From Glycomyces tenuis DSM 44171 (lineage in GTDB: Bacteria > Actinomycetota > Actinomycetes > Mycobacteriales > Micromonosporaceae), in assembly GCF_000427885.1 (NCBI RefSeq), contig NZ_ATYW01000014.1, positions 124,001 to 188,000 on the forward strand: a stretch of 64,000 bases of DNA, read 5' to 3'. Under the pieces are notes generated by a model. The model was not told the origin of the DNA. It made no database searches and saw only the letters and a program-made list of their open reading frames with translations. Below are positions 20,896 through 55,474 of this stretch, one piece after another. Both the position numbers and the translations under genes were made by a program. Positions within the stretch are counted from its first letter, which is position 1. Each line of letters begins with the position of its first letter.

Positions 20896-20957
20896 TTGAC
20901 CTGTCGCGGTCATGCTTTGTAGGGTCTCCGTATAGATCGATATATTGAAACGATTCA
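20896..20957 (+). promoter_or_regulatory. Promoter and LacI-like operator of the rhamnose-type ABC operon
   Basis: TTGACC (20896-20901), 18-bp spacing and TAGGGT (20920-20925) form a promoter. TTGAAACGATTCA (20945-20957) just downstream is an imperfect palindrome with the central CG of LacI/GalR operators. It sits immediately before the ribosome-binding site of the ATPase gene. Repression by a sugar-responsive LacI-type protein encoded elsewhere is inferred. Confidence 0.5.
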
Positions 20958-20968
20958 TAGGGGGAGGC

Positions 20969-24535: not shown

Positions 24536-24548
24536 GGAAGGAACGTCC

Positions 24549-25653: not shown

Positions 25654-25750
25654 ATCGCAAGGCGGCGACCGCAACCGGAGACCCTGACGTCCCGTCCGTA
25701 TGATGCCTACAGATCCGGCAACTCCACCATCGCGAGAGGACCGACATCTC

Positions 25751-27666: not shown

Positions 27667-29352
27667 ATGATCAAGAGATTGACCCGCGCCTCGGCCGCCA
27701 TCGCGGCCGCGACGCTGCTGCTCACGGCCTGTGCCGGCGGAGGGGATGACGGCTCCGGCGGCGGCGGGGGCGACCCCGTCGAAGGCGGGACCGTCCACAT
27801 GCTCCAGAACGCCGACTTCTCCTACCTCGACCCGGCGCGCGGCTTCGACGGCGGCGTGAACGCGTTCTACCGGCTGATCTACCGCGGCCTCACCATGCAG
27901 GCCGCCGGCGACGCCGAAGACCCGAACGCCATCGTCCCCGACATGGCCGAGAGCCTCGGGACGCCCTCGGAAGACGGGCTCACCTGGACCTACACCCTCA
28001 AAGACGGCCTGAAGTTCGACAACGGCGACCCCATCACCTCAGCCGAGGTCGCCTTCGGCATCTCCCGCGCCTGGGACCCGGAGATCGGCATCGGCTCGCC
28101 GTGGCTGAAGCAGACCATCGCCGCCCCCGAGGACTACCAGGGGCCCTACCTCTCGGGCGAGCACCCCGGCATCGAGACCCCCGACGAGAGCACCATCGTG
28201 TTCCACCTCATCGAGCCCTTCCCGGAGTTCGACAACGTGCTCGCGCAGCCGAACGCGGTGCCCTTCCCCGTCGGCAGCGGAGCCGGTGACGAGTTCATCA
28301 ACGACGTCATCGCCTCCGGCCCGTACACGCTCGAGACCTACACCCCCGGCAGCCTCATCGAGCTCGTCCGCAACGAGCACTGGGACCCCGAGACCGACGA
28401 GGTCCGCAAGGCGCACCCCGACGCCTGGGAGTTCGAGATCGGCCTCGAAGGGGCCACGATCGACGAACGGCTCATGGCCGGGCAGGGGTCCGACGTCAAC
28501 GCCATCTCCGGCGTCATCCAGCCGGCCACCCTGGCGCGCGTGCAGACCCCCGAGCTCCAGGACCGGCTGCTGACCTCGCCCGCCTACTGCACCACCTACA
28601 TGTCGATGAACATGACGAAGGCGCCGTTCGACCAGCTCGAGGTCCGCCAGGCGATCAACTGGGCCATCGACCGGACGTCCATCCAGACGGCCTCCGGCGG
28701 CAACCAGCTCGCCGACCCCGCCACCACGATCATCCCCGAGGCGGTGAACGGCCACAAGGACTTCGACCTGTACCCCAGCGAGGACCACGGCGGCGACCCC
28801 GCCAAGGCGCTGGAGCTCCTCTCCCAGGTGGGCCTCGAAGACGGCTTCTCCTTCGTCCTCGACATCCGCTCCCAGCCGAAGATGCAGGCGCAGGCCGAGG
28901 CCATCCAGCAGGCGCTCAAGGAGATCAACGTCGAGGTCGAGCTGAACGTCATCGACACCTCGACGTACTACGAGACGATCGGCACGCCCTCGCAGCAGAG
29001 CGACGCCGCCATCACCGGCTGGTGCCCCGACTGGGCCTCCAGCGCCAGCACGATGGTCCCGCCGCTGGTCGACGGGCGCCTCATCACCGACAAGGGCAAC
29101 ACCAACCTCGCCCAGATCGACGACGAGACGATCAACGCCCGCATCGACGAGATCAGCGCCATGACCGACCTCGAGGCGGCGAACGCCGAATGGGGCGAGC
29201 TCGACGAGGAGGTCATGGCCCTGGCGCCGATGGCCCCCCTCGTCTGGGAGAAGGGCATCTTCCTTCCCGGTGAGAACATCGCCGGCTACCACCCCAGCAC
29301 CAGTCTCACCGACCTGACGATCATCGGGCTGGAAGACCCGTCGCTGGGCTGA
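27667..29352 (+). CDS. Peptide ABC importer substrate-binding lipoprotein (SBP family 5)
   Basis: The 561-aa lipoprotein has a lipobox Cys at residue 22 (LLTAC) followed by a Gly-rich tether. It carries the OppA/DppA (SBP_bac_5) landmarks: YRGLT..DMAESLGTPSEDGLTWTYTLKDGLKFDNGDPITSAEVAFGISR and VRQAINWAIDR. Relatives bind oligopeptides, dipeptides, nickel or glycosides. Downstream genes code for proline-directed peptidases, GH127 and hydroxyproline catabolism, so hydroxyproline-rich (glyco)peptides are the inferred cargo. It is first gene of the operon. Confidence 0.9.
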   Translation: MIKRLTRASAAIAAATLLLTACAGGGDDGSGGGGGDPVEGGTVHMLQNADFSYLDPARGFDGGVNAFYRLIYRGLTMQAAGDAEDPNAIVPDMAESLGTPSEDGLTWTYTLKDGLKFDNGDPITSAEVAFGISRAWDPEIGIGSPWLKQTIAAPEDYQGPYLSGEHPGIETPDESTIVFHLIEPFPEFDNVLAQPNAVPFPVGSGAGDEFINDVIASGPYTLETYTPGSLIELVRNEHWDPETDEVRKAHPDAWEFEIGLEGATIDERLMAGQGSDVNAISGVIQPATLARVQTPELQDRLLTSPAYCTTYMSMNMTKAPFDQLEVRQAINWAIDRTSIQTASGGNQLADPATTIIPEAVNGHKDFDLYPSEDHGGDPAKALELLSQVGLEDGFSFVLDIRSQPKMQAQAEAIQQALKEINVEVELNVIDTSTYYETIGTPSQQSDAAITGWCPDWASSASTMVPPLVDGRLITDKGNTNLAQIDDETINARIDEISAMTDLEAANAEWGELDEEVMALAPMAPLVWEKGIFLPGENIAGYHPSTSLTDLTIIGLEDPSLG

Positions 29353-29357
29353 CACCG

Positions 29358-30332
29358 ATGACCTTCACTCCGACTGACCTCGAAGTCGAAGGCGCCGCGG
29401 GCGGCGGGACGGGGGGCGATCCCTCCCCGGCCCCGCCGCCCGCGCAGCGGCGACGCCTCGTCCGCGCCTTCCTCCGCGACCGCGTGGCCGTCGCCTGCGG
29501 CGTCTACATCCTGCTCGTCATCGTCATGGCCCTCGCCGCGCCGCTGCTGGTCAAGCTCAGCGGCTACGGGCCCCTGGAGTTCGACCAGAGCGCCGTCGAC
29601 CCGAACCTGGGCGGGCTCCCGATCGGCTGGGGCGGCGGGATCGGCGCCGAGCACTGGTTCGGCGTCGAGCCCGGGAACGGGCGCGACATCTTCGCCCGCA
29701 TCGTCTACGGCGCCAGGGTGTCGATGACGATCGCCCTCTCGGCGACCGTGCTGACGAGCGTCCTCGGCGTCGTCTTCGGACTGGTCGCCGGCTACTTCGG
29801 CGGGCGCGTCGACATGCTGATCTCCCGCGTCATGGAGTTCCTCATGGCCTTCCCGGCGCTCATCTTCATGATCGCCGTCCTCTCCGCGCTCCCCGCGGAG
29901 AACCGCCAGCTCCTGCTCGTCGTCGTGATCTCCTTCTTCGGGTGGCCGTACCTGGCCCGCATCGTCCGAGGCCAGACCATGTCGCTCAAGGAACGCGAGT
30001 TCGTGGAGTCCGCCAGGGCCTCGGGGGCCTCCAGCGCCCAGATCATCTTCAAGGAGATCCTCCCGAACCTCGCCTCGACCATCATCGTGATGACCACCCT
30101 CGCCGTGCCCGGCTACGTCGGCACCGAGGCGGGGCTGTCGTTCCTCGGCGTGGGCGTCGTCCCGCCGACACCGTCATGGGGGCAGATGATCGCCAGCTCC
30201 GTGCCCTGGTACGCCGTCGACCCGGCCTACTTCCTCATCCCGGGCTCCTTCCTGTTCCTGCTCGTGCTGTCGTTCACCGTGCTCGGCGACCGCGTCAAGA
30301 AGATCGCCGAATCAGGGGAGGGCAGGGCATGA
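29358..30332 (+). CDS. Peptide ABC importer permease (DppC/OppC-like)
   Basis: The 324-aa permease has an OppC_N-type first TM after a long low-complexity N-terminus, the extracellular EHWFGVEPGNGRDIFARIVYGAR segment and the EAA loop EFVESARASGASSAQIIFKEILPN. It is encoded before its DppB partner, the reverse of the usual order, and its stop overlaps the DppB start by 4 bp. Confidence 0.9.
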   Translation: MTFTPTDLEVEGAAGGGTGGDPSPAPPPAQRRRLVRAFLRDRVAVACGVYILLVIVMALAAPLLVKLSGYGPLEFDQSAVDPNLGGLPIGWGGGIGAEHWFGVEPGNGRDIFARIVYGARVSMTIALSATVLTSVLGVVFGLVAGYFGGRVDMLISRVMEFLMAFPALIFMIAVLSALPAENRQLLLVVVISFFGWPYLARIVRGQTMSLKEREFVESARASGASSAQIIFKEILPNLASTIIVMTTLAVPGYVGTEAGLSFLGVGVVPPTPSWGQMIASSVPWYAVDPAYFLIPGSFLFLLVLSFTVLGDRVKKIAESGEGRA

Positions 30333-31327
30333 GCCGCTTCCTCCTCAACCGGCTGCTCGGCATGGTCGTCGTGCTGTTCCTGGTGTGCCTGTTCACCTTC
30401 GTCGTCTTCTTCGTCCTCTCACCGGACCCCGCGGTGCAGATCTGCGGGAAGAACTGCACGCCGGAGGCGATCGACCAGATCCGGGAGAACCTCGGTCTCG
30501 ACCAGCCGTTCCTGACGCAGTTCTGGACCTTCATCAGCGGGCTCTTCGTCGGCCGCACCTACGGGACCGGCCCGAACGCCATCGACTGCGCCGCGCCGTG
30601 CCTGGGCTACTCGTTCCAGACGAGCCAGCCGGTCGCCGACATGATCATGCAGCGCCTGCCGGTCTCCGCGACCATCGCGATCGGCGCCGCGGTGCTCTGG
30701 CTGCTCGCCGGCATCGCCGGAGGGCTCATCAGCGCCGTGCGCGAAGGAAGGTTCGCCGACCGCTTCATCACCGGCCTCACCCTCACCGGCATGTCCATCC
30801 CCAACTACGTGCTGGCGCTCGCCTTGCAGTTCCTGCTCGTGGTCACGCTCGGATGGCTCCCGTTCCCGCAGGCGGTGCCCTTCGGGGACGACCCGGTGCA
30901 GTGGTTCATGAACTTCCTCATGCCCTGGATCGTGCTCGCCATCGGGGCGGCGGCCGTCTACACCCGGCTCACCCGGGCGAACGTCATCGAGTCGCTCCAG
31001 GAGAACTACGTGCGCACCGCGCGGGCGAAGGGGCTCAGCCCCGGCCTGGTCTGGCGGCGGCACGCGCTGCGCCCGGCCCTGACCCCGATCGTCACGATCT
31101 TCGGCATGGACTTCGCCAACCTGCTCGGCGGGGCCCTCATCACCGAGACCGTCTTCGGGCTCAACGGCATCGGCAAGCTCGCCGCCGACTCGATCACGAA
31201 GAACGACCAGCCGGTCATCATGGGCGTCACGCTGCTCGCGGCGTTCCTGGTCGTCGTCGGCGCCATGGTGGTCGACCTGCTGTACACCGCCATCGACCCG
31301 CGCGTGCGAGTGGGGAGCGCGAAATGA
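30329..31327 (+). CDS. Peptide ABC importer permease (DppB/OppB-like)
   Basis: The 332-aa permease has six TM helices and the EAA motif NYVRTARAKGLSPGLVWRRHALRPALTP. An inserted periplasmic loop with four Cys (ICGKNC and DCAAPC, about residues 38-95) is notable and could form disulfides outside the membrane. ATGA overlaps join it to both neighbours. Confidence 0.9.
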   Translation: MSRFLLNRLLGMVVVLFLVCLFTFVVFFVLSPDPAVQICGKNCTPEAIDQIRENLGLDQPFLTQFWTFISGLFVGRTYGTGPNAIDCAAPCLGYSFQTSQPVADMIMQRLPVSATIAIGAAVLWLLAGIAGGLISAVREGRFADRFITGLTLTGMSIPNYVLALALQFLLVVTLGWLPFPQAVPFGDDPVQWFMNFLMPWIVLAIGAAAVYTRLTRANVIESLQENYVRTARAKGLSPGLVWRRHALRPALTPIVTIFGMDFANLLGGALITETVFGLNGIGKLAADSITKNDQPVIMGVTLLAAFLVVVGAMVVDLLYTAIDPRVRVGSAK

Positions 31328-32181
31328 GCACGACGAGCGACACCGGCGGGCCGCTGCTGCGCGTCCGCGGCCTCACGGTCGGCTTCCCGACCGCCGCCGG
31401 GAGCGTCGAGGTGGTCAAGTCCCTCGACTTCGAGCTGGCCAGGGGCGGCGCGCTCGGCATCGTCGGCGAGTCCGGCTCGGGCAAGTCGATGACGAGCCTG
31501 GCGATCATGGGGCTCCTCCCCAAGGGCGCCAGGCGCACCGGCTCCATCGAGTTCGACGGGACCGAGCTGACCGCCCTGCGCGAGCGGGCGATGCGGGCGG
31601 TCCGCGGGGACCGCATCGCGATGATCTTCCAGGACCCGCTCTCCTCGCTCAACCCCTACTACACGGTGGGGACGCAGATCGCCGAGGCGTACCGCTCGCA
31701 CCGCAAGGGCGTGACCAGGCGGCAGGCGCGGGCCGTGGCGATCGAGGCGATGGAGCGCGTGCACATCCACGACGCCGCCCGCCGCGTCGACCACTACCCG
31801 CACCAGTTCTCCGGCGGCATGCGGCAGCGCGTGATGATCGCGATGATGCTCAGCATGGAGCCCGAGCTGCTCATCGCGGACGAGCCGACGACCGCGCTCG
31901 ACGTCACGGTGCAGGCGCAGATCCTCGACCTGCTCGCCGAGATCCGGGCCGACACCGGCGCGGGGCTCATCCTCATCACGCACGACCTCGCCGTCGTCAG
32001 CGAGGTCACCGACCACATCGTCGTCATGCGCGAGGGCGAACTGGTCGAACAGGGCCCGGTGGAGCGGATCTTCACCGACCCGCGGGAGGCGTACACGCGC
32101 ATGCTCCTCGACGCCGTGCCGCGCATCGACGACGAGATCGGACTGCTGAAGACCACCGCGAGCGCCGAGGAGGACCGATGA
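31324..32181 (+). CDS. Peptide ABC importer ATPase (DppD-like)
   Basis: The 285-aa ATPase shows Walker A GESGSGKSMT, Q-loop IFQDPLSSLNP, signature FSGGMRQRVMIAMML, Walker B LLIADEPTTALD and the H-loop ITHDLAVV. The oligopeptide-type C-terminal extension is short and I do not see the usual Cys cluster. It is translationally coupled on both sides (ATGA). Confidence 0.9.
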   Translation: MSTTSDTGGPLLRVRGLTVGFPTAAGSVEVVKSLDFELARGGALGIVGESGSGKSMTSLAIMGLLPKGARRTGSIEFDGTELTALRERAMRAVRGDRIAMIFQDPLSSLNPYYTVGTQIAEAYRSHRKGVTRRQARAVAIEAMERVHIHDAARRVDHYPHQFSGGMRQRVMIAMMLSMEPELLIADEPTTALDVTVQAQILDLLAEIRADTGAGLILITHDLAVVSEVTDHIVVMREGELVEQGPVERIFTDPREAYTRMLLDAVPRIDDEIGLLKTTASAEEDR

Positions 32182-33047
32182 GCGACGGATCCGAGCCCCT
32201 GCTGCGGGCCACGCACCTCGTCAAGGAGTTCGCCGTCGGCGGCGGACTGCTCGGCCGCGGCCGCCGCTTCACAGCGGTGGACGACGTCTCGCTCGAGGTC
32301 CGCACCGGCGAGACGCTCGCGCTCGTCGGCGAGTCCGGTTCGGGCAAGTCGACCACCGCGCGGCTCATCGCCCGGCTCCTCGACGTCACCGCCGGCGACA
32401 TCGAGTTCGCCGGCCGCCCGGTCCACGCCCTCACCGGCAAGGCGCTGCACGCGTACCGCGGCGAAGTGCAGGTCGTCTTCCAGGACCCGTACTCCTCGCT
32501 GAACCCCAAGCACACCGTCGAGCGGATCGTCACCGCGCCGCTGGTCTACCAGAAGCGGCCGATCCCCGGCGGCGCCCGCGCCTTCACCGGGGCGCTCATG
32601 GAGCGCGTCGGACTCAACCCCGACCACTCGGCCCGCTTCCCCGCCCAGTTCTCCGGCGGGCAGGCGCAGCGCATCGGCATCGCCCGCGCGCTGGCCGTCT
32701 CCCCGAAGCTGATCATCGCCGACGAAGCGGTGTCCGCATTGGACGTGTCGGTGCAGGCGCAGGTCATCAACCTGCTGCGCCGCCTCCAGGAGGAGGAGGG
32801 CTTCAGCTACCTGTTCATCGCGCACGACCTGGCGGTCGTGCGGCAGATCGCGACGCGCGTCGCGGTCATGAACGGCGGGCGCATCGTCGAGACCGGCGAC
32901 CGCGACCAGGTCTTCGACTCGCCCCGCGACGAGTACACCAGGAAGCTCCTCGCCGCCGTCCCCAGGATCAGACCCGAATGGGACGCTGAGCGGCGCCGGA
33001 ACGAGCAGGCCCGCAAGGACCGCGAACGAGAGGAGGCCGGACGGTGA
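32178..33047 (+). CDS. Peptide ABC importer ATPase (DppF-like)
   Basis: The 289-aa second ATPase has Walker A GESGSGKSTT, VFQDPYSSLNPKHTV, FSGGQAQRIGIARAL and LIIADEAVSALDVSVQ, with Val-Ser replacing the usual Pro-Thr in the Walker B tail. It pairs with the DppD-like subunit. The peptidase start GTG 33044 overlaps its stop, tying import to peptide cleavage. Confidence 0.9.
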   Translation: MSDGSEPLLRATHLVKEFAVGGGLLGRGRRFTAVDDVSLEVRTGETLALVGESGSGKSTTARLIARLLDVTAGDIEFAGRPVHALTGKALHAYRGEVQVVFQDPYSSLNPKHTVERIVTAPLVYQKRPIPGGARAFTGALMERVGLNPDHSARFPAQFSGGQAQRIGIARALAVSPKLIIADEAVSALDVSVQAQVINLLRRLQEEEGFSYLFIAHDLAVVRQIATRVAVMNGGRIVETGDRDQVFDSPRDEYTRKLLAAVPRIRPEWDAERRRNEQARKDREREEAGR

Positions 33048-34330
33048 TCGAGTACTCGATGCCCGGCATGTGGGTGAGCGAGCGCCATGTCGACGTCCCA
33101 CTGGACTGGTGGGACCCGGCCCGCGGCGAGATCGAGGTCTTCGTCCGCGAGATCGTCGACCCCGACAAGCGCGGCGACGGTTCGCTGCCGCTGCTCACCT
33201 ACCTCCAGGGCGGCCCCGGCGGGGACAACCCGCGCCCGACCGAGGTCTCCGGCTGGCTGGAGGAGGCCCTGAAGCACTACCGGGTCGTGCTGGTCGACCA
33301 GCGCGGCACCGGCCGCAGCACCCCGCTCGACGCCCGGATCGTCGCCGAACTCGGCGACGCGCAGGCGGGAGCCGACCACCTCGCCCGCTTCCGCGCCGAC
33401 TCCATCGTGCGCGACCTCGAGCACGTCCGCTCCACCGTCTATGAAGGACGGAAGTGGGCGACGCTCGCGCAGAGCTACGGCGGCTGGCTCACCCTCGCCT
33501 ACCTCTCGCACGCCCCCGAGGCGCTCAGCGCGAGCTACGTGTGCGGCGGCATCCCCGGCAACCCCATGAGCGCCGAGGAGGTCTACCGGCGCACCTTCGA
33601 CCGCGTCGCGGGCAAGACCGCCGAGTACTACCGGCGCTACCCGCAGGACGCCGAGCTCGTCGCGCGGATCGCCGACCGGCTCGCCGCCGAGCCCGTGCAC
33701 CTGCCCGACGGCGACGTGCTGACCGTGCGCCGCTTCCAGTCGCTCGGCATCGACTTCGGCATGAAACCGGGCTTCGAGCGGATGCACTGGCTCGTCGAGG
33801 ACGCCTTCATCACCGAAGGCCGCCTCTCCGAAGGCTTCCTCGCCGCCGTCCTCGCCCGCACCTCCTCGGCCGCCAACCCGCTCTTCTGGACCCTCCAGGA
33901 GTCGATCTACGGCGACGGCGCGAACGGGCCGACCGCTTGGGCGGCGCAGCGCGAACGCGACCGCCGCCCCGAGTTCGGCGAGGACGTCCGCCCGCTCCCG
34001 TTCACCGGCGAGATGGCCTTCCCGTGGATGTTCGACGAGGTCCGGCTGCTGCGTGGCTTCGCCCCCGCCGTCCACGCCCTCGCCGAGCGCCGCGAGTGGA
34101 GCCCGATCCTCGACCCCGAGCGGCTGGCGGCCAACGAGGTCCCGGTGGCCGCGGCCGTCTACTTCGACGACATGTACGTCGACTCCGGCCTCCAACTGGA
34201 CACCCTGAAGGGCCTCGGCAACGCCCAGGCCTGGGTGACGAACGAGTTCGAGCACGACGGGATCGGATCGGGGCGGGTGCTCACCCGCCTGCGCGAGATG
34301 GTCCGCGACCGAGGAGGAGAGCGGCGATGA
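33044..34330 (+). CDS. Alpha/beta hydrolase, proline iminopeptidase-like (S33)
   Basis: The 428-aa protein has the oxyanion motif QGGPGGDNP (55-63), DQRGTGRS (85-92) and the nucleophile elbow AQSYGG with S144, typical of S33 prolyl aminopeptidases, which remove N-terminal Pro or hydroxyproline from peptides. A large cap insertion follows. No signal peptide, so cytoplasmic. The GTG start overlaps the ATPase stop and the end overlaps the aminopeptidase start. Context suggests release of Pro/Hyp from imported peptides. Confidence 0.86.
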   Translation: MIEYSMPGMWVSERHVDVPLDWWDPARGEIEVFVREIVDPDKRGDGSLPLLTYLQGGPGGDNPRPTEVSGWLEEALKHYRVVLVDQRGTGRSTPLDARIVAELGDAQAGADHLARFRADSIVRDLEHVRSTVYEGRKWATLAQSYGGWLTLAYLSHAPEALSASYVCGGIPGNPMSAEEVYRRTFDRVAGKTAEYYRRYPQDAELVARIADRLAAEPVHLPDGDVLTVRRFQSLGIDFGMKPGFERMHWLVEDAFITEGRLSEGFLAAVLARTSSAANPLFWTLQESIYGDGANGPTAWAAQRERDRRPEFGEDVRPLPFTGEMAFPWMFDEVRLLRGFAPAVHALAERREWSPILDPERLAANEVPVAAAVYFDDMYVDSGLQLDTLKGLGNAQAWVTNEFEHDGIGSGRVLTRLREMVRDRGGERR

Positions 34331-35772
34331 GCGAGACGGCACGACCCCCGTACGCGGGCACCCGCTACCCGAAGCTGGCGGAGATCCCCGCGTTCGCCGA
34401 GCACATCGCGAAGGGCTGGAGCGACGAGCCGGTCCCCGCGGCGCCCGTCGACGGCGCCGCCGCCGCGGCGGCCGCGCACCGGGAGCGGCTGAGCGAACGC
34501 CTGCCCGAGGCGACGATCGTCGTCGCATCGGGCACCGCGCCGGTCCGCAACGACGACTGCGACTACCTCTTCCGCGCCGACAGCGACTTCGTGTGGCTCA
34601 CCGGATGCCAGGCCGAAGGGGCGACCCTGGTGATGACGCCCCGGCCCGGCGGCCACGACGCCAGGCTCTACCTGCCGCCGCCGTTCCGTCCCGGCGAGAC
34701 CGGCTTCTTCGCCGACGCCGCCCACGGCGAACTGTGGGTCGGCGCCTCACCGGGACTGCGCGAATGGTCCGAGGCCCTCCAGATCCCCGTCGAACCGGTC
34801 GCGGCCCTCGACGACCTCACCGGGCTCCAGGGCGCGCTCGCGAGCCGCTCGGTGGGCGCCGAGTTCGCCGCCCGCCACGGACTCGAGCCCTCCGCGGCGC
34901 TCGGGCGGCAGCTGTCCCGGCTGCGGATGGTCAAGGACGCCTGGGAGGTCGAGCAGATGCGCCTCGCGGTCGACGCGACCGTCGCCGGTTTCGGCGAGGT
35001 CGCCCGCGAAGTGCCGCGCGCCGTCCGGGACGGCCTCGGCGAGCGCTGGCTCCAGGGCACCTTCGACCGGCACGCCCGCACCTTCGGCAACGGCCCCGGC
35101 TACGCCACGATCGTCGGCTCCGGCCCGCACGCGCCCACCCTCCACTGGGTCCGCTGCGACGGCCCGGTCCTGCCCGAGGCCGTGCTGCTCCTCGACATGG
35201 GCGTGGAGGCGAAGAGCCTCTACACCGCCGACGTCACCAGGACGCTTCCCGCGGGCGGCGCCTTCAGCCCCGCCCAGCGCCAGGTCCACGACCTCGTCGA
35301 GCGGGCGCACCGCGCCGGACTGGCGCGGATCCGCCCCGGCACGGAGTACCTCGACTTCCACTTCGCCGCGATGGAGGTCGTCGCGCAGGGCCTGCACGAC
35401 TGGGGGCTGCTGCCCGTGTCCGTCGACGAGGCGCTCTCCCCGGCGGGGCAGCACCACCGGCGCTACCTCGCCTGCGGCATCGGCCACCACCTCGGGCTCG
35501 ACGTGCACGATTGCAGCCAGTCCGAATACGAGGACTACATGGGCGCCGAGCTCGAACCGGGCGTCGTCATGACGGTCGAGCCGGGACTCTACTTCCACGC
35601 GGGCGACCTCACCGTCCCGCCGGAGCTGCGCGGCATCGGGGTCCGCCTCGAGGACGACGTGCTCGTCACCGAGGGCGGCTCCGAGGTGCTCTCCGCCGCG
35701 CTCCCGATCGACGCCGACGGCGTCGAGGCGTGGACGCGCGCGCACGTCGCGCACGGGAAGGACGGCCTATGA
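34327..35772 (+). CDS. Xaa-Pro aminopeptidase (M24B)
   Basis: The 481-aa metallopeptidase has an AMP_N creatinase-like N-terminal domain (about 40-180) and a pita-bread M24 domain. The metal ligands lie in LLLDMGVEAKSLYTADVTRT (two Asp), GIGHHLGLDVHD (His), MTVEPGLYF (Glu) and GIGVRLEDDVLVTE (Glu). It cleaves the bond before proline, and related enzymes accept hydroxyproline. It has no signal peptide. The ATGA overlap with GH127 ties protein and glycan processing into one operon. Confidence 0.92.
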   Translation: MSETARPPYAGTRYPKLAEIPAFAEHIAKGWSDEPVPAAPVDGAAAAAAAHRERLSERLPEATIVVASGTAPVRNDDCDYLFRADSDFVWLTGCQAEGATLVMTPRPGGHDARLYLPPPFRPGETGFFADAAHGELWVGASPGLREWSEALQIPVEPVAALDDLTGLQGALASRSVGAEFAARHGLEPSAALGRQLSRLRMVKDAWEVEQMRLAVDATVAGFGEVAREVPRAVRDGLGERWLQGTFDRHARTFGNGPGYATIVGSGPHAPTLHWVRCDGPVLPEAVLLLDMGVEAKSLYTADVTRTLPAGGAFSPAQRQVHDLVERAHRAGLARIRPGTEYLDFHFAAMEVVAQGLHDWGLLPVSVDEALSPAGQHHRRYLACGIGHHLGLDVHDCSQSEYEDYMGAELEPGVVMTVEPGLYFHAGDLTVPPELRGIGVRLEDDVLVTEGGSEVLSAALPIDADGVEAWTRAHVAHGKDGL

Positions 35773-38462: not shown

Positions 38463-38560
38463 GGACACGAATCGGAGGCCGGGAAGACGGCGCGGTGTAC
38501 GCTGCCATGCGACGGCGTCAGTCCAGTACGCACGTTATCGAAGGGCGGGCGGGAGAGTGA
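38459..38560 (+). CDS. Possible 33-aa coupling ORF between GH127 and gntR
   Basis: This short frame begins with an ATGA overlap at the GH127 stop and ends with a GTGA overlap at the GntR start, so ribosomes could pass from one gene to the next. The product (MRTRIGGREDGAVYAAMRRRQ..) has no recognisable domain. Chance is a real possibility. Confidence 0.25.
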   Translation: MRTRIGGREDGAVYAAMRRRQSSTHVIEGRAGE

Positions 38561-39237
38561 CGTTGCCATCCATCCAACGACTAGAGCCGGGCGAGAGCCT
38601 GCGGGCGCGCGTGGAGCGGACGCTCGCGACCGCGATCATCTCCGGTGAGCTCGCCCCCGGGACGCTCTTGACCGTCCCCACGCTGGCCGAGCGCTTCGCG
38701 GTCTCGGCGACGCCCGTCCGCGAGGCGATGCTCGACCTCGACAAGCGCGGCTTCGTCGAACCGGTGCGCAACAAGGGCTTCCGCGTGACGGCGGTGAGCG
38801 ACGACCTGCTCCACGACATCGTCGAGATCCGCCTGCTGCTCGAGCCCCCCGCCATGGCGCGCCTCGCCGGGGCCTTCCCGGCCGACCGCCTGGAGGAGTT
38901 CCGATCCCAGGCCGACGCGATCGTCACCGGCGCCCGCGCCGGCGACCTCACCGCCTACCTGCTCGCCGACCGGCGCTTCCATCTCGAACTGACCGCGCTG
39001 CTCGGCAACGCCGTCCTGGTCGACACGATCGCCGAGCTGCGCGCCCGCACCAGGATGGTCGGGCTCGTCTCGCTGCTGGAGACGAGCATGCTCGACGTCT
39101 CGGCCGAAGAGCACCACCGGCTCCTCGACCACCTCGCCGCGGGCGACGCGGACGCGGCGGCCGAGGTCATGCGCCAGCACATCCGCCACGCCATCGGATG
39201 GTGGGCGGGCAAACCCGAAGCGAACGCGGGCGGGTAG
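38557..39237 (+). CDS. GntR family regulator, FCD subfamily
   Basis: The 226-aa protein has an N-terminal winged HTH (LTVPTLAERFAVSATPVREAMLDLDKRGFVEPVRNKGFRV, about residues 35-75) and a C-terminal FCD all-helical ligand domain with the metal/acid-binding D..H..H pattern (DRRFHLELTAL, EEHHRLLDHL, MRQHIRHAI). FCD-GntR proteins sense carboxylates or amino acids. It lies between the peptide/GH127 half and the hydroxyproline half, with similar candidate sites before each, so it is the likely local regulator. Confidence 0.88.
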   Translation: MTLPSIQRLEPGESLRARVERTLATAIISGELAPGTLLTVPTLAERFAVSATPVREAMLDLDKRGFVEPVRNKGFRVTAVSDDLLHDIVEIRLLLEPPAMARLAGAFPADRLEEFRSQADAIVTGARAGDLTAYLLADRRFHLELTALLGNAVLVDTIAELRARTRMVGLVSLLETSMLDVSAEEHHRLLDHLAAGDADAAAEVMRQHIRHAIGWWAGKPEANAGG

Positions 39238-39280
39238 ACCGCCCGGGGCGCGAGAGCGGAGCCGTTGCGCCTCTTCTAAA

Positions 39281-39291
39281 TATGTGACATA
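39281..39291. promoter_or_regulatory. GntR-like operator before the hydroxyproline catabolic genes
   Basis: TATGTGACATA is a perfect 11-bp palindrome 35 bp before the first catabolic gene, in an AT-rich patch. Nine bases of it recur in reverse complement at 27469-27477. The size fits an FCD-GntR operator. Confidence 0.5.
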
Positions 39292-39325
39292 CCACTGAGC
39301 GAGACACTGATTGAAGGAGGTGACC

Positions 39326-40516
39326 ATGCGAGCCGATGCGGTGATCGTCGGCGCCGGCATCGTCGGCGCCGCGTGCGCGCGCGCCCTGGCGCGCACCGGG
39401 ATGAGCGTCGTCGTCGTCGACCGCGGCGCCCCCGCCAGCGCGACGAGCGCGCGCGGCGAAGGCAACCTCCTGGTCTCCGACAAGGCGCCCGGGCCGGAGC
39501 TCGACCTCGCGCTCCTCGCCTCGGAGCACTGGCCCCGCCTCGCCGCCGAACTCGCCGACGAGCTCGGCGCCGCGTTCCCCGCCGTCGAGTACGAGCGCAA
39601 GGGCGGCATCGTCGTCGCCACGACCGAGGCCGGGGCGGGGCCGCTGCGCGATTTCGCGCGCGGTCAGGCCGAGGCCGGAGTCGAGGTCCGCGACCTCGCC
39701 GCCGCCGAGGCGCTCGAACTCGAACCCCACCTCAACCCCGAGATCACCGCCGCCGTCCACTACGGGCAGGACGCTCAGATCCAGCCGGTCGTCGCCACCG
39801 AGGCCCTGCTCGCCTCGGCGAGGCGGGCGGGCGCGCGCGTCCTGCCGCACCAGGAGGTCACCGGTGCGCTGCGGGACGCGACCGGGAGGGTCACCGGCGT
39901 CCGCACGGCCTCGGAGACGCTCCACGCCGACACCGTCGTCGTCGCGGCCGGGCCCTGGTCCGGCGCGGCGGCCGGCGCCCTCGGCGCCGATCTCCCCGTC
40001 CGCCCCCGCCGCGGCACGGTCCTGGTCACCGCCCGCATGCGCCAGAAGGTGTTCCACAAGGTCTACGACGGCGACTACTTCGGCGCGACCCAGTCCACCG
40101 ACGCCGCCCTGCAGACCTCGAGCGTCGTCGAGTCCACCCCCGGCGGCACCGTCCTGATCGGATCGAGCCGCCAGCAGATCGGCTTCGACGAGCGGCTGAG
40201 CGTCGAGGTGCTCGCCGCGATCGCGCGGAAGGCCCTGCGGCTCTTCCCCTTCCTCGAGACCACCCCGGTGATCCGCGCCTACGGCGGCTTCCGTCCCTAC
40301 ACGCCCGACCACCTCCCGGTCATCGGCGAAGACCACCGGCACCCCGGCCTCTGGTACGCCACCGGGCACGAGGGCGCCGGGATCGGCCTGGCGGGCGTCA
40401 CCGGCGAACTGATCGGCGCGCTCGTCACCGGCGCCGAACCGCCGCTCGACCCCGAGCCGTTCCGGCCCTCGCGGCCGAGCCTCGCGGCCCACCTGGCACC
40501 GGAAGGAGCGGCATGA
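39326..40516 (+). CDS. FAD-dependent D-hydroxyproline dehydrogenase, catalytic (beta-like) subunit
   Basis: The 396-aa DAO-family flavoprotein has AVIVGAGIVGAACARALARTG at the N-terminus and GFRPYTPDHLPVIGE..GLWYATGHEGAGIGLAGVTG at the C-terminus. A strong AAGGAGGTGA site supports ATG 39326. Together with the next two genes it matches the heteromeric, hcnABC-like D-hydroxyproline dehydrogenase, which oxidises cis-4-hydroxy-D-proline to pyrroline-4-hydroxy-2-carboxylate. Specificity is inferred from the complete pathway around it. Confidence 0.83.
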   Translation: MRADAVIVGAGIVGAACARALARTGMSVVVVDRGAPASATSARGEGNLLVSDKAPGPELDLALLASEHWPRLAAELADELGAAFPAVEYERKGGIVVATTEAGAGPLRDFARGQAEAGVEVRDLAAAEALELEPHLNPEITAAVHYGQDAQIQPVVATEALLASARRAGARVLPHQEVTGALRDATGRVTGVRTASETLHADTVVVAAGPWSGAAAGALGADLPVRPRRGTVLVTARMRQKVFHKVYDGDYFGATQSTDAALQTSSVVESTPGGTVLIGSSRQQIGFDERLSVEVLAAIARKALRLFPFLETTPVIRAYGGFRPYTPDHLPVIGEDHRHPGLWYATGHEGAGIGLAGVTGELIGALVTGAEPPLDPEPFRPSRPSLAAHLAPEGAA

Positions 40517-40842
40517 GCGCCATCGTCCCCTGGGAATCCGACCCGATCCGCCCCGCCGAGCCCCGGCCGCTGCGCATCAGCGTCGACGGCGCCCCGGTCG
40601 AAGGGCTGCGCGGGCAGTCGATCGCCGGCGTCCTCCTCGCCCGGGGCGAGACCGCCTGGCGCACCACCGTCGCGGGCCGCAGGCGCGGCGTGTTCTGCGG
40701 GATCGGCGTCTGCTTCGAGTGCGTCGCCACCGTCAACGGCGAGAGCGACGTCCGCCTGTGCCTGCGCCGCGTGCAGGACGGCGACGTCGTCGAGACACGG
40801 GACGACACCGCGCAAGACGACACAGTGGAGGATCGGTCATGA
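40513..40842 (+). CDS. (2Fe-2S)-binding subunit of D-hydroxyproline dehydrogenase
   Basis: The 109-aa plant-type ferredoxin-like subunit has cluster ligands C62, C67, C70 and C83 (CGIGVCFEC..CL). Such small subunits (gamma, HcnA-like) pass electrons between the two flavoprotein subunits. It overlaps both neighbours by 4 bp (ATGA), consistent with fixed stoichiometry. Confidence 0.87.
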   Translation: MSAIVPWESDPIRPAEPRPLRISVDGAPVEGLRGQSIAGVLLARGETAWRTTVAGRRRGVFCGIGVCFECVATVNGESDVRLCLRRVQDGDVVETRDDTAQDDTVEDRS

Positions 40843-42239
40843 GGCACGTCCTCGTCATCGGCGCCGGACCCGCCGGGCTCGCCGCCGCCCTGGCCGCGAG
40901 CGACGCCGGAGCGAGCGTCACCCTCCTCGACGCCGGCGACGGCCTCGGCGGACAGTACTGGCGGCACCTGCCGCCCCAGCGCCCCAGCCGCCGCGAATCC
41001 CGGCTCCACCACGGATGGGCCGCCTTCGAACGGCTCCAAGGCCGCATCGGCCGTGCCGACGCGATCGAGGTCCTCACCGAAGCCCAGGTCTGGGCGATCG
41101 AGACCGCCGACGCCGTGACGGCCCAGGTCCTCCTCGGACCCACCGACGCCGCGGGCCGCGAGGCGCGTGCCCTGACCGCCGACGCGATCGTGCTCGCCCC
41201 CGGCGCCCACGACCGCACGCTGCCGTTCCCCGGATGGCACCTCCCCGGCGTCTTCTCCGCGGGCGCCGCCCAGGCCCTCGCCAAGGGCGAGCGGATCGCC
41301 GTGGGGCGCCGCGCCGTCGTCGCCGGCGCCGGGCCCTTCCTGCTGCCGGTCGCCCAGTCGCTCACCGCCGCGGGCGCCACCGTCCTCGGCGTCTTCGAGG
41401 CCGCCCGCCCGCGAGCCCTCGCCAGGGGCTGGCTCCCGAAGCCGTGGAAACTGCTCGGCACGGCCCACAAGGGACGTGAGCTCGCCGGGTACCTGGCCCA
41501 CCACCTCGCCCACCGGGTGCCCTACCGCCCCGGCCGCGCCGTGGTCGAAGCGCGCGGCGACGGCCGCGTCGAGGAAGTCGTCATCGCGCGCCTCGACGCC
41601 GACTGGGCCCCCGTGCCCGGCACCGAGCGGACCCTCGCCGCCGACGCGGTCTGCGTCAGCCACGGCTTCACCCCGCGCCTCGAACTCCCCATCGCCGCCG
41701 GATGCGAGATCGGCCCGGACCGCTTCGTCCGTGTCGACCCCGACCAGCGCACGAGCGTCGAAGGCGTCTACGCGGCCGGCGAGATCACCGGCATCGGCGG
41801 CGTCGACGCGGCGCTCGTCGAGGGCCGCATCGCCGGGCACCGCGCCGCCGGAGGCGACCGCTCCGCGATGGGCTCGGCGCCGCGGCGCGCCCGGGCCGCC
41901 GCCGAGCTCACCCGGCGCATCGAGGCCGCCCACGGCATCCGCCCCGGCTGGACGTCCTGGCTGCGCGACGACACCGTCGTCTGCCGCTGCGAGGAGGTCC
42001 CCTACGGGCGGCTCCGGGCCGTCGCGGCCGCCACCGAGCAGCGCTCGCTGCGGTCGGTGAAACTCACGACGCGAGCGGGCCTGGGCATCTGCCAGGCGCG
42101 CATGTGCGGGCGCACCGTGGAATCGCTCATCGGAGCGGATCCGTCGAGCGGCGCCGACACCTCAGACCGGCGGCCCCTGGCCGCGCCCGTCCGACTCGGC
42201 GACCTCGCCGGACTCCCCACCGCGCCCGACGGCGCCTAG
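40839..42239 (+). CDS. NAD(P)/FAD oxidoreductase subunit (HcnB-like) of D-hydroxyproline dehydrogenase
   Basis: The 466-aa protein has an N-terminal GAGPAGLAAALAASDAG dinucleotide motif, a second Rossmann motif VVAGAGPFLLPVAQSL near residue 165, TSVEGVYAAGEITGIGG, and a C-terminal BFD-like iron-sulfur region with CRCEEV and GLGICQARMCG. This is the alpha-subunit design of amino-acid dehydrogenases of the opine/octopine, HCN-synthase and D-Hyp type. Starts inside the end of the Fe-S gene. Confidence 0.86.
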   Translation: MRHVLVIGAGPAGLAAALAASDAGASVTLLDAGDGLGGQYWRHLPPQRPSRRESRLHHGWAAFERLQGRIGRADAIEVLTEAQVWAIETADAVTAQVLLGPTDAAGREARALTADAIVLAPGAHDRTLPFPGWHLPGVFSAGAAQALAKGERIAVGRRAVVAGAGPFLLPVAQSLTAAGATVLGVFEAARPRALARGWLPKPWKLLGTAHKGRELAGYLAHHLAHRVPYRPGRAVVEARGDGRVEEVVIARLDADWAPVPGTERTLAADAVCVSHGFTPRLELPIAAGCEIGPDRFVRVDPDQRTSVEGVYAAGEITGIGGVDAALVEGRIAGHRAAGGDRSAMGSAPRRARAAAELTRRIEAAHGIRPGWTSWLRDDTVVCRCEEVPYGRLRAVAAATEQRSLRSVKLTTRAGLGICQARMCGRTVESLIGADPSSGADTSDRRPLAAPVRLGDLAGLPTAPDGA

Positions 42240-42254
42240 AAAGGTACGACACCC

Positions 42255-43193
42255 ATGACTGACAAGAACTTCGACCTCGGCGGCGTCATCGTCGCCACGA
42301 CGCTGGCGTTCAAGGAGGACCCGAAGGCCCCCGCCGGGCTCGCGGTCGACTACGACAAGTTCGCCGAGCACTGCGACTTCCTCATCCGCAGCGGCTGCCG
42401 CGGCGTCGGCCCCAACGGCTCGCTCGGCGAGTACTCCTCCCTGACCGACGAGGAGCGCCGCAAGGTCGTGCAGGTCGCCGTCGACACGGTCGCGGGCCGC
42501 GGCCTCGTCGTCGCCGGCGTCCACGGCGTCGGCTGGCACCAGGCGGTCCAGTGGGCCGAGCACGCCGCGGAGGACGGCGCCGACGGCGTCCTGCTGCTCC
42601 CGCCGACGATCTACCGCGCCAACCGCGGCGAGGTGCTCGAGCACTACGCCAAGGTCGACGAGGTCGGCCTGCCGATCATGGCCTACAACAACCCGATCGA
42701 CACGAAGGTCGACCTGACGCCCGAGCTCATCGCCGAACTCCACGAGCTCGAGAACGTCGTGGCCGTCAAGGAGTTCTCGACCGACGTCCGCCGCGTCCTG
42801 GAGATCAAGGAGCGCTGCGGCATCGACGTCATCGCCGGGGCCGACGACCTCCTCTTCGAGTCGCTCGTCGTCGGCGCGACCGGCTGGTTCGCCGGATACC
42901 CGAACGCCTTCCCCCGCGAGGCCGTCGAGATCTACGAGCTCGTCCGGGCCGGGAAGATCGAGCAGGCGCGCGAGCTGTACACCGGCCTGGTGCCGGTGTT
43001 CCGCTGGGACTCCAAGACGGAGTTCGTCCAGGCGATCAAGCTGTCCATGGACGTCGCGGGCAACACCTACGGCGGTCCGACCCGCCCGCCGCGCGGGCCG
43101 CTCTCGGAGTCCCAGCGCGAGCAGGTCGTCCGCGACACCCGCCGCGCCCTGGACCACGCCGAACGGGTCCACGCCGCCGCCGGTGCCAACTAG
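42255..43193 (+). CDS. Pyrroline-4-hydroxy-2-carboxylate deaminase (DHDPS family)
   Basis: The 312-aa TIM barrel of the dihydrodipicolinate synthase/NAL family has Schiff-base Lys at K172 (VAVKEFS) and Tyr at Y144 (MAYNNP). In this setting it should deaminate and dehydrate pyrroline-4-hydroxy-2-carboxylate to 2-oxoglutarate semialdehyde. A housekeeping dapA role is unlikely because the gene is surrounded by the other three hydroxyproline steps. It starts 15 bp after the oxidoreductase. Confidence 0.85.
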   Translation: MTDKNFDLGGVIVATTLAFKEDPKAPAGLAVDYDKFAEHCDFLIRSGCRGVGPNGSLGEYSSLTDEERRKVVQVAVDTVAGRGLVVAGVHGVGWHQAVQWAEHAAEDGADGVLLLPPTIYRANRGEVLEHYAKVDEVGLPIMAYNNPIDTKVDLTPELIAELHELENVVAVKEFSTDVRRVLEIKERCGIDVIAGADDLLFESLVVGATGWFAGYPNAFPREAVEIYELVRAGKIEQARELYTGLVPVFRWDSKTEFVQAIKLSMDVAGNTYGGPTRPPRGPLSESQREQVVRDTRRALDHAERVHAAAGAN

Positions 43194-43241
43194 CGGGCCG
43201 GGGTACCGTGCACCGCACGGGCCTCTCCCGATCGGAGGATC

Positions 43242-44243
43242 ATGAGAACGACACGGCTGATCAGCGCCGTCGACTCGCACACGGAGGGCATGCCGACCCG
43301 CGTGGTCACCGGCGGCGTCGGCCCCGTCCCCGGCGCGACGATGAACGAGCGGCGCCTGTACTTCATCGAGCACATGGACGAGCTGCGGCGCTTCCTGATG
43401 GACGAGCCGCGGGGCCATGCGGCGATGAGCGGCGCGATCCTCCAGCCGCCGAGCCGCCCCGACTGCGACTGGGGCGTGGTCTACATCGAGGTGTCCGGCT
43501 GCCTGCCGATGTGCGGGCACGGCACGATCGGCGTCGCGACCGTGCTCGTCGAGACCGGCATGGTCCCCGTCGTCGAGCCCGTCACCGAGATCCGGCTCGA
43601 CACGCCCGCCGGGCCGGTCACCGCCAGGGTCGCGGTCGCGGACGGGCACGCCGAGTCGGTCACCATCGAGAACGTGCCGAGCTACGTCGACGCGCTCGAC
43701 ACGAGCGTCGAGGTGCCCGGGCTGGGCACCGTCCCGTACTCGATGGCCTTCGGCGGCAACTTCTACGCCATGGTCCACCTCGACGACGTGGGCCTGCCGT
43801 TCGACCGCTCGCGCCAGCGGGAGATCCTCGCGGCGGGCCTGGCGATCATGGACGCGATCAACGAGACCGCCCCGCCGGTGCATCCGGAGATCGCCGGCCT
43901 GGACCACTGCCACCACGTCGAGTTCATCGCGCCGGGCTCGACCGCTGCGCACTCGCGGCACGCGATGGCCATCCACCCCGGCTGGTTCGACCGCTCGCCC
44001 TGCGGCACCGGCACCTCCGCCCGGATGGCCGAACTGTGGGCGCGCGGCGAGCTCGCGCTCGAGACCGACTTCGTCAACGAGTCGTTCATCGGCACCCGCT
44101 TCATCGGGCGGCTGGTCGGGGCGACCTCCGTGGGCGAGACGCCGGCCGTGATCCCCACGATCACCGGCCGCGCGTGGGTGACCGGCACCGCCCAGTACAT
44201 GCTCGACCCCGACGACCCCTTCCCTTCGGGATTCCAGTTCTAA
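43242..44243 (+). CDS. 4-hydroxyproline 2-epimerase (proline racemase family)
   Basis: The 333-aa enzyme has both acid/base cysteines, C91 in MCGHGTIG and C254 in SPCGTGTS. The two-Cys form marks true racemases/epimerases and not the Ser/Thr-containing dehydratases. It converts trans-4-hydroxy-L-proline to cis-4-hydroxy-D-proline, the substrate of the dehydrogenase encoded just upstream. It is the entry step of the pathway. Confidence 0.92.
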   Translation: MRTTRLISAVDSHTEGMPTRVVTGGVGPVPGATMNERRLYFIEHMDELRRFLMDEPRGHAAMSGAILQPPSRPDCDWGVVYIEVSGCLPMCGHGTIGVATVLVETGMVPVVEPVTEIRLDTPAGPVTARVAVADGHAESVTIENVPSYVDALDTSVEVPGLGTVPYSMAFGGNFYAMVHLDDVGLPFDRSRQREILAAGLAIMDAINETAPPVHPEIAGLDHCHHVEFIAPGSTAAHSRHAMAIHPGWFDRSPCGTGTSARMAELWARGELALETDFVNESFIGTRFIGRLVGATSVGETPAVIPTITGRAWVTGTAQYMLDPDDPFPSGFQF

Positions 44244-44254
44244 GAGGAGTGTTG

Positions 44255-45748
44255 ATGACGAAGCAGACGCCTGCAGACCGCCTCGAGGCGATCGCGAGCG
44301 CCGCCGACGAGGCGGCGCGCGCCCTCGCGCGGATCGACCCCGCGACCCGCGCCGCCGCGCTCGTCGCCGCGTCGGACGCGATCACGGCCGAGGCCGACGA
44401 CCTGGTGGCGCTCGCGATGAGCGAGACCGGCCTGGCCGAGGCCCGGCTGCGCGGCGAGCTGAAGCGGACCGCCGTCCAGCTGCGGCTCTTCGCCGACACG
44501 GTCGTCGACGGCGCCTACCTCGACGCCCGGATCGACCGCGCCGACCCCGACTTCGCGCTCGGGCCCCGGCCCGACGTGCGCCGCGTCAACGAGCCGGTCG
44601 GGCCCGTGCTGAACTTCGCCGCGAGCAACTTCCCGTTCGCGTTCTCCGTCGCCGGAGGCGACACCGCCGCGGCCCTCGCCGCGGGCAACCCCGTCATCGT
44701 CAAGGCCCATCCCGGCCATCCGCTCCTGTCCGAGCGCACCGCCGAGGTCGTCGCCGCCGCGCTCGAAGGCGCGGGTCTCCCTTCGGGGACGCTGCAGCTC
44801 ATCGCCGGGCAGGACGCCGGGACGGCGATGCTCCGGCACCCGCTGGTCAAGGCCGCCTCGTTCACCGGTTCGGTCCGCGGCGGCCGGGTGCTCGCCGACA
44901 TCGCCGCCGCCCGCCCGGACCCGATCCCGTTCTACGGCGAGCTCGGCAGCGTGAACCCCGTCTTCGTGACCGCCGGCGCCCTCGCCGCACGCGCGGGCGA
45001 GATCGCCGCCGGGCTCGTCGCGAGCGTCGGCGGCTCCGCCGGGCAGCTGTGCACCAAGCCCGGTTTCGTCTTCCTTCCCGCCGGCCACGGCCTCGACGAC
45101 GCGATCGCCGCGGCCTCGGCCGAGGTCGAGGAGCACCGGATGCTCAACCCGCGCATCGCCGAAGGCTACGTGCGGCGGCGCGAGGAGATCCTCGGCACCG
45201 CGGGCGTCCGCGTCGTCCACGCCGGATCGGTGCGCACCGACGAGGGCGGCCAGGGCTGGGTGACGCCCACGATCGTCGCCGTCGCCGTCGCCGACCTCCG
45301 CGTCGGCCTCGGCACGCTCCTCGACGAGTGCTTCGGCCCGCTCACGGTCCTCGTCGAGGTCCCCGACGGGACCGACTTCGCGGAGCTGCTGGGGGAGTTC
45401 TTCGAGGGCAACCTGACCGTCACCGTGCACCGCGCCGACGGCGACGACGTCGCGGGCCTGGTGCGCGCGGCGGCGCGCCACGCGGGCCGCGTGCTGTTCG
45501 ACGGATGGCCCACGGGCGTCGCGGTGACCCCCGCGATGCAGCACGGCGGGCCGTGGCCCGCGACGACCTCGGGCGGCACGAGCGTCGGGACGGCGGCCAT
45601 CGCGCGGTTCGTGCAGGGCGTGGCCTACCAGAACGCGCCGGCCGAGCTCCTTCCGCCGCCGCTGCGCGACGACAACCCGTGGGGCGTGCCGCAGCGGATC
45701 GCCCCGGCCGGGGAGTCGTCGGAGTGGGGCGGCCGAGCGGCGGCGTGA
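44255..45748 (+). CDS. 2,5-dioxovalerate (alpha-ketoglutarate semialdehyde) dehydrogenase
   Basis: The 497-aa aldehyde dehydrogenase has the AraE/KGSADH-like pattern NFAASNFPFAFSVAGGDTAAALAAGNPVIVKAHPGHP, general base E229 (GELGSVNP) and nucleophile C266 (GQLCTKPG). It makes 2-oxoglutarate from the semialdehyde, feeding the TCA cycle and ending the hydroxyproline route. AAGAGGAG precedes ATG 44255. It is last gene of the operon and is convergent with DUF2071. Confidence 0.92.
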   Translation: MTKQTPADRLEAIASAADEAARALARIDPATRAAALVAASDAITAEADDLVALAMSETGLAEARLRGELKRTAVQLRLFADTVVDGAYLDARIDRADPDFALGPRPDVRRVNEPVGPVLNFAASNFPFAFSVAGGDTAAALAAGNPVIVKAHPGHPLLSERTAEVVAAALEGAGLPSGTLQLIAGQDAGTAMLRHPLVKAASFTGSVRGGRVLADIAAARPDPIPFYGELGSVNPVFVTAGALAARAGEIAAGLVASVGGSAGQLCTKPGFVFLPAGHGLDDAIAAASAEVEEHRMLNPRIAEGYVRRREEILGTAGVRVVHAGSVRTDEGGQGWVTPTIVAVAVADLRVGLGTLLDECFGPLTVLVEVPDGTDFAELLGEFFEGNLTVTVHRADGDDVAGLVRAAARHAGRVLFDGWPTGVAVTPAMQHGGPWPATTSGGTSVGTAAIARFVQGVAYQNAPAELLPPPLRDDNPWGVPQRIAPAGESSEWGGRAAA

Positions 45749-55458: not shown

Positions 55459-55474
55459 TCGTCCCAGTCCGAGA

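Follow-up and report, generated by a model that had tools for sequence, protein, structure and literature searches.

A predicted locus for the use of arabinosylated hydroxyproline peptides in Glycomyces tenuis and related actinobacteria

The stretch of DNA analysed here (the window; 64,000 nucleotides, contig NZ_ATYW01000014.1, positions 124,001 to 188,000) belongs to the 5.7 Mb genome of Glycomyces tenuis DSM 44171 and carries, between positions 27667 and 45748, fifteen genes that all lie on the + strand. Comparison with related loci strongly supports the view that peptide import, imino-peptidases, a leaderless beta-L-arabinofuranosidase and the catabolism of hydroxyproline (Hyp) form one recurring gene set. 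The locus is likely to act as a single functional system, probably as one regulon, that uses arabinosylated Hyp peptides of plant hydroxyproline-rich glycoproteins (HRGPs). The genes named in a first-pass annotation, with their strand and order, were all recovered by Pfam and NCBIfam domain searches and a coordinate check of the window:

27667-29352, + strand: peptide-binding lipoprotein (SBP_bac_5; PF00496, E=4e-73; lipobox Cys22)
29358-30332, + strand: OppC-type permease (PF00528, PF12911)
30329-31327, + strand: OppB-type permease (PF19300, PF00528)
31324-32181, + strand: OppD-type ATPase (PF00005, PF08352)
32178-33047, + strand: OppF-type ATPase (PF00005, PF08352)
33044-34330, + strand: predicted S33-like prolyl aminopeptidase (GGPG at 56, Ser144 in QSYGG; 8jgn, E=7e-97)
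34327-35772, + strand: predicted M24B aminopeptidase P, Xaa-Pro (PF00557, PF05195)
35769-38462, + strand: leaderless, predicted GH146-like beta-L-arabinofuranosidase, 897 aa, with a C-terminal OmpL47-type domain
38557-39237, + strand: FCD-GntR regulator (PF07729, PF00392)
39311-40516, + strand: predicted D-hydroxyproline dehydrogenase, DAO subunit (PF01266)
40513-40842, + strand: 2Fe-2S subunit (Fer2_4) of the dehydrogenase (PF13510)
40839-42239, + strand: FAD/BFD subunit of the dehydrogenase (Pyr_redox_2, Fer2_BFD)
42255-43193, + strand: DHDPS-family predicted pyrroline-4-hydroxy-2-carboxylate deaminase (PF00701)
43242-44243, + strand: proline racemase-family predicted 4-hydroxyproline 2-epimerase (Cys91, Cys254)
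44255-45748, + strand: predicted 2-oxoglutarate semialdehyde dehydrogenase (KGSADH; domain search)

Consecutive genes overlap by 4 nt at each of the six junctions from OppC through the glycosidase. The GntR gene is flanked by gaps of 94 nt, after the glycosidase, and 73 nt, before the DAO gene, which suggests either a pair of transcription units or a single one that the regulator interrupts.

Relatives were collected by scanning a GTDB genome set with a glycosidase alignment, and the best 80 of the 94 loci obtained were kept; all fifteen window proteins were mapped onto these 80 loci, which were then classed by neighbourhood. The M24 gene stands directly before the glycosidase in 47 of them, 29 lack any other part of the locus and four are partial (L036, L037, L051, L060). 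In the glycosidase tree, the 29 loci form a sister clade set apart from the rest by one branch (SH-aLRT support 100). Of the 47 M24-adjacent loci, 38 have a linked epimerase, a count that includes additionally fetched stretches and short loci, versus 0 of the 29 sister-clade loci. The S33 gene is found in 43 of the 47, as are all five importer genes (43/47), and the M24-glycosidase pair occurs in nine bacterial families. Co-occurrence in relatives, set beforehand as the point on which the proposal could fail, is clearly conserved. Among the nine loci for which linkage to an epimerase was not shown, L069 keeps the DAO and GntR genes where its flank ends, L079 retains DAO, GntR and KGSADH and its scaffold contains nine runs of N, the contigs of L070 and L094 are short, and the epimerase is truly unlinked in L030, L041, L042, L046 and L050. 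Where a genome was searched for an epimerase, one was present (22/22), 19 of these 22 having none in the first flank. In a sample of the phylum (296 genomes), the glycosidase was detected in five genomes including the window's own (E<=1e-100) and the epimerase in 19; none of the four other glycosidases, from the 295 genomes besides the window's, is near its own epimerase, and one of their frames has an internal TGA.

Gene neighbourhood and likely cell location of the glycosidase go together. The first-pass annotation had assumed that all enzymes of the locus lack signal peptides, and this holds for the glycosidase, the one enzyme examined, whose start overlaps the M24 stop and whose N-terminus is not hydrophobic. 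Among the 47 M24-adjacent loci, M24 stop and glycosidase start share 4 nt in 39 and 8 nt in five, and in one the glycosidase starts at +10; no coupled start was found in the other two. By contrast, 28 of the 29 sister-clade glycosidases have a hydrophobic, twin-arginine-like N-terminus, the 29th (L105) starting near a contig edge. Hydropathy from the coupled start is 0.55-1.43 in 45 of the 47 loci, none of which has a similarly hydrophobic stretch, 1.53-2.11 in the 28 sister-clade loci and -1.17 in L051. A text pattern for twin-arginine-like signals, applied to upstream translations, had also flagged L051 and five of the 47 M24-adjacent loci; the latter hits are taken to be the M24 gene read in a wrong frame, and the pattern was therefore replaced by hydropathy.

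A further indication that the two halves of the locus belong together comes from operator-like palindromes. Three were found in the window, all of the form GTGAYATRYYAC:

27270-27281, no strand assigned: operator-like palindrome GTGATATGTTAC, 386 bp upstream of the lipoprotein start
27456-27467, no strand assigned: operator-like perfect palindrome GTGATATATCAC, 200 bp upstream of the lipoprotein start
39284-39295, no strand assigned: operator-like palindrome GTGACATACCAC, 16 bp upstream of the DAO start

With one mismatch allowed, the pattern GTGATATRTYAC gave four strand-hits at three sites in the window versus 0.09 expected, a number matched by no shuffle, and a looser palindrome pattern gave 6 hits versus 1.57 expected, with 2 of 100 shuffles reaching 6. 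In the whole genome, up to one mismatch retrieves the three locus sites plus one at C2:471189, and up to two mismatches yield 67 strand-hits versus 30 with the reversed pattern, too many for each to be interpreted individually. Since GTGATATRTYAC was chosen after its sites had been seen, relatives provide the better test. This first palindrome lies upstream of the lipoprotein gene in 12 of 12 Glycomyces loci, upstream of the DAO gene in all eight Glycomyces loci that have DAO there, and between the divergent units in six of eight Promicromonospora loci; it also precedes the lipoprotein gene in Catenuloplanes, Actinosynnema, Symbioplanes and a Ruaniaceae bacterium. Across 51 related loci, 38 of 49 hits stand before the lipoprotein, DAO or GntR gene and 11 elsewhere. 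It is absent before these genes in all 17 Microbacterium loci, and Kineococcus (L095) and one Streptomyces (L063), scanned for that pattern only, gave no hit.

Microbacterium has its own palindrome, TGCAATTGCA, which was not found in the 12 Glycomyces loci. All 15 loci with DHDPS, whose match is the first Hyp gene, have this palindrome 29-82 bp upstream of that match; of the 16 Microbacterium loci having a lipoprotein, seven have it no more than 300 bp upstream of the lipoprotein match (7 of 14 with the Hyp half, 0 of 2 without; in L055 the site is 1.6 kb away). In the 24 loci scanned, which count one region twice (L061, L157), 30 of 31 hits fall outside recognised genes, and about 5 hits would be expected from shuffles preserving single-base composition only. 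An earlier scan for a 14-bp palindrome had given nothing in 7 of 15 Microbacterium loci, and the 10-bp core was tried afterwards. Neither palindrome was found in Pseudoclavibacter (L036), Leucobacter (L037), L057, L060 and Microbacterium L050 and L094. In Glycomyces as in Microbacterium, one motif marks both halves, in Microbacterium for part of the loci. We infer that the GntR protein binds the palindrome, as a putative operator.

Gene order varies around this constant content. The Hyp half follows the glycosidase in Glycomyces and Microbacterium, with differing internal orders, is divergent from the import half in Promicromonospora, and precedes the importer in Streptomyces, Actinosynnema, Catenuloplanes, Symbioplanes, Kineococcus and a Ruaniaceae bacterium. 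In the epimerase tree, the Glycomyces, Promicromonospora and Streptomyces-type loci lie in a clade of 28 rows (support 99), with Microbacterium outside. The first DHDPS tree was in agreement but was bent by the very long row of L061, probably no orthologue; rebuilt without L061, L057 and the window's row, it shows the same split (23 versus 27 rows, support 100), Microbacterium being grouped with several Hyp operons unlinked to a glycosidase. The glycosidase tree, however, joins Microbacterium and Glycomyces (33 rows, support 92), and the enclosing clade (37 rows, support 98) excludes the Promicromonospora and Streptomyces-type loci. This disagreement suggests that the import and deglycosylation half joined at least two Hyp lineages, or that the Hyp half was exchanged in situ. 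Among 22 Glycomyces genomes, the glycosidase was found in 15 (E<=1e-150) and the epimerase in 19 (E<=1e-100); ten of the 15 have the epimerase within about 10 kb of the glycosidase, the nine besides the window's being 86-92% identical to it.

The glycosidase is a member of PF07944 and had been labelled GH127 (HypBA1) by the first-pass annotation. That membership is rejected: by sequence rank and by fold rank among PDB structures, the closest characterised relatives are GH146 enzymes, and a domain search did not report PF20737, the GH127 C-terminal domain, for the window protein. The same domain is reported for a true GH127 of Pseudoclavibacter (L036), which lies directly downstream of the GH146-like gene. 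Glu342, Cys344, Cys412 and Cys413 do not vary among the 14 sequences aligned and correspond to the Glu-Cys3 zinc/nucleophile motifs of GH146, and Glu324 is also conserved; the corresponding site of Bll3HypBA1 is E723, C725, C804, C805 (PMC10850190; here and below, most papers cited by PMC number are cited from excerpts). The structure model is weak at the active-site loops, its predicted local distance difference test score falling below 50 at 312-341 and 392-417. Sequence comparison supports a GH146-like enzyme with predicted beta-L-arabinofuranosidase activity.

As for import, the SBP_bac_5 lipoprotein, two permeases and two oligo_HPY ATPases make up a complete Opp-type oligopeptide set, and the structure nearest to the lipoprotein is that of OppA2 (2wok, E=5e-85). 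The S33 protein matches Arabidopsis AT3g61540 (8jgn, E=7e-97), which we take to be an S33 peptidase, and the related 8jgm (E=4e-97). The M24B protein scores above the cut-offs of both PF05195 (AMP_N) and PF00557 (Peptidase_M24), and its nearest solved structures are aminopeptidases P. A review raises the possibility that S33 enzymes degrade collagen peptides rich in Pro/Hyp (PMC9147577). A different protein, with a weak M6-peptidase match below the Pfam cut-off, directly follows the glycosidase in L058 (12725-14194) and has relatives near four further Promicromonospora loci (L064, L068, L069, L070; five loci in total); it is possibly an extracellular protease feeding the importer. In the Hyp half, epimerase, three-subunit D-Hyp dehydrogenase, DHDPS-family deaminase and semialdehyde dehydrogenase are all together, which is the content of a 4-Hyp operon. 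The epimerase belongs to the proline racemase superfamily (PF05544, 425.1 bits, cut-off 27).

From these assignments the following route can be proposed. The lipoprotein and the Opp importer would take in short (glyco)peptides, from which the leaderless GH146-like enzyme would cleave beta-L-arabinofuranose (beta-L-Araf) off Hyp in the cytoplasm. Aminopeptidase P would cut before Pro/Hyp and the S33 prolyl aminopeptidase after an N-terminal Pro/Hyp, so that the two jointly could take apart peptides of the Ser-Hyp-Hyp type. Free Hyp would then be epimerised, oxidised by the three-subunit dehydrogenase, deaminated and oxidised to 2-oxoglutarate, and the released arabinose may enter a pathway with araA, which is present in the genome outside the locus. 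The GntR protein would control both halves via a common operator.

It should, however, be noted that several observations weigh against this reading. Both palindromes, the Glycomyces type and the Microbacterium type, were picked after their sites had been seen. The strict family models are missed: the S33 protein, described by the first-pass annotation as prolyl iminopeptidase-like, keeps its kinship to AT3g61540 and misses the NCBIfam proline iminopeptidase cut-offs (33.4 bits, cut-off 259.75), and the M24B protein scores 186.2 bits on a strict NCBIfam model (cut-off 465). Likewise, the two cysteines announced for the epimerase, Cys91 and Cys254, are both present, and the protein reaches 340.2 bits on the NCBIfam 4-hydroxyproline epimerase model PRK13971 (cut-off 376), so that its Hyp substrate is assigned from the neighbouring genes. 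The C-terminal domain of the glycosidase (about residues 725-890, NF047446) is unexpected in a cytoplasmic enzyme and would fit secreted proteins. XeHypBA1, a GH146 enzyme (PMC10850190), acts on Ara1-Hyp and not on Ara3-Hyp or Ara4-Hyp (PMC6085000), so that the extensin tetra-arabinoside may not be removed completely by this locus alone; other GH146 enzymes favour other beta-Araf bonds (PMC10850190). Moreover, the halves occur apart. Five of the 15 glycosidase-bearing Glycomyces genomes have their epimerase elsewhere, and it is of a more distant kind (68-72% identical). In Glycomyces L141, S33 alone stays beside the Hyp genes, with no glycosidase; genomes G290 and G247 (L139, L140) have a full Hyp set, with epimerases 85% and 77% identical to the window's, and neither glycosidase nor importer in 19.5 kb. 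An Arthrobacter plasmid (NZ_CP012477.1; L159, 9593-21812) has, like the window, S33, M24, DHDPS, epimerase, GntR, the three-subunit dehydrogenase and KGSADH together, in the order S33-M24-DHDPS-epimerase-GntR-dehydrogenase-KGSADH, but unlike it lacks both a glycosidase and an Opp importer within the 25 kb examined. Sugar removal therefore looks like an added module, and plain Hyp and Hyp-peptide systems exist. The plasmid cluster also contains a gene of the ornithine cyclodeaminase family and another, divergent member of the proline racemase family.

Such clusters are consistent with an alternative that we regard as unlikely, in which sugar and peptide enter the cell by different routes, the glycosidase acting on arabino-oligosaccharides from another transporter and the Opp system carrying peptides stripped outside. 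Five further PF07944 genes elsewhere in the genome are in keeping with it, and Bifidobacterium longum offers a precedent. Its HypAA-HypBA2-HypBA1 system, like the present one, concerns beta-L-Araf on extensin-type Hyp and combines an intracellular PF07944 enzyme with an ABC importer, but there a sugar importer brings in the disaccharide beta-Ara2 (beta-arabinobiose), not a glycopeptide, after extracellular cleavage, and the cluster is described as three glycosidases and a transporter (PMC7263609); HypBA1 is GH127, whereas the window glycosidase is nearest GH146. Against separate import, the sole importer in the cluster is of the peptide type, the glycosidase gene begins before the peptidase gene has ended in 44 of 47 loci, and a secreted sister clade exists, no member of which (0/29) lies in such a cluster.

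Peptides of the CLV3/CLE and PSY1 types carry arabinosides on Hyp. That the system imports and destroys such intact arabinosylated plant signals, in addition to cell-wall fragments, seems doubtful: the importer type and the peptidase pair fit short Hyp peptides and do not favour peptide signals over wall protein fragments. If it were so, plant-associated actinobacteria could lower hormone levels in the apoplast or rhizosphere by eating the hormones. Peptide hormones are named as beta-Araf carriers (PMC7263609).

Activity on Ara-Hyp as a free glycoside is known for enzymes of GH146 and GH127 (PMC10850190, PMC6085000). A free Hyp-arabinoside, an amino-acid glycoside and not a peptide, is nevertheless an improbable substrate here, as it would leave the two imino-peptidases and the Opp importer, each so widely conserved, unexplained. 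XeHypBA1, from the XeHypBA1/XeHypBA2/XeHypAA system of Xanthomonas euvesicatoria, is placed in GH146, the family to which the window enzyme is nearest (PMC10850190 for XeHypBA1), and prefers Ara-Hyp; unlike the window enzyme it has a signal peptide, no Opp importer or Hyp pathway is mentioned with it in the excerpts, and a frameshift is reported in a predicted prolyl oligopeptidase gene next to it (PMC6085000).

A proline racemase or other proline-derivative pathway in place of 4-Hyp catabolism is very improbable. Among NCBIfam models, the epimerase scores highest against the proline racemase model PRK13969 (347.4 bits) and its nearest solved structure is AsProR, but the cut-off of PRK13969 (556) is missed as well, and the same kinds of genes respond to trans-4-Hyp in Streptomyces lividans TK24, where the D-Hyp oxidase, dehydratase/deaminase and KGSADH genes beside such an epimerase form an operon up-regulated on this substrate (PMC4113996). 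Unlike the present locus, that operon is described in a text (eLife 2014) that mentions no arabinosidase, glycosidase or oligopeptide (PMC4113996); peptidase families and ABC transporters are noted near trans-3-Hyp dehydratases of Bacilli (PMC4113996). Lastly, the 94-nt gap with a regulator between the halves, and their separation in five Glycomyces genomes, could suggest chance neighbours or two unrelated operons, a view that can hardly be upheld and is rejected on the 80-locus comparison and the glycosidase, epimerase and DHDPS trees, given that the M24-glycosidase pair recurs in nine families, that several orders of the genes exist, that two Hyp lineages are involved and that two different palindromes mark both halves.

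Two other carbohydrate gene groups lie in the window. Upstream, a RhaS-type ABC sugar importer (20945-25616; NCBIfam rhamnose-binding protein model, 361 bits, cut-off 342.25) ends about 2 kb before the locus, with a Sulfotransfer_3 family protein (25700-26950) in between; rhamnose is also a constituent of plant wall glycans. Downstream, what appears to be an independent carbohydrate locus (52822-63317) encodes a GH36 alpha-galactosidase, some components of a sugar ABC importer and two GH97 proteins.

Extensins and other HRGPs are a nitrogen- and carbon-rich component of the plant wall. Bacterial use of their protein as well as their sugar is little described in the literature searched: an in silico proposal of HRGP use exists for Latescibacteria (PMC4454575), and a Geobacillus plasmid carries a Pro/Hyp cluster with peptidases (PMC4593210). 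In the open-access PMC literature, with subscription papers mostly outside its coverage, no paper was recognised that places Hyp catabolism, an oligopeptide importer and a GH127/GH146 enzyme in one locus. If the use of arabinosylated Hyp peptides is the right reading, the locus would provide a complete route from glycopeptide to 2-oxoglutarate in one place and would suggest a cytoplasmic role for leaderless GH146-like enzymes. Its binding protein may then serve as a probe for Hyp-arabinosides, and an M24 gene directly before a leaderless GH146-like gene would be a marker for this trait in actinobacteria.

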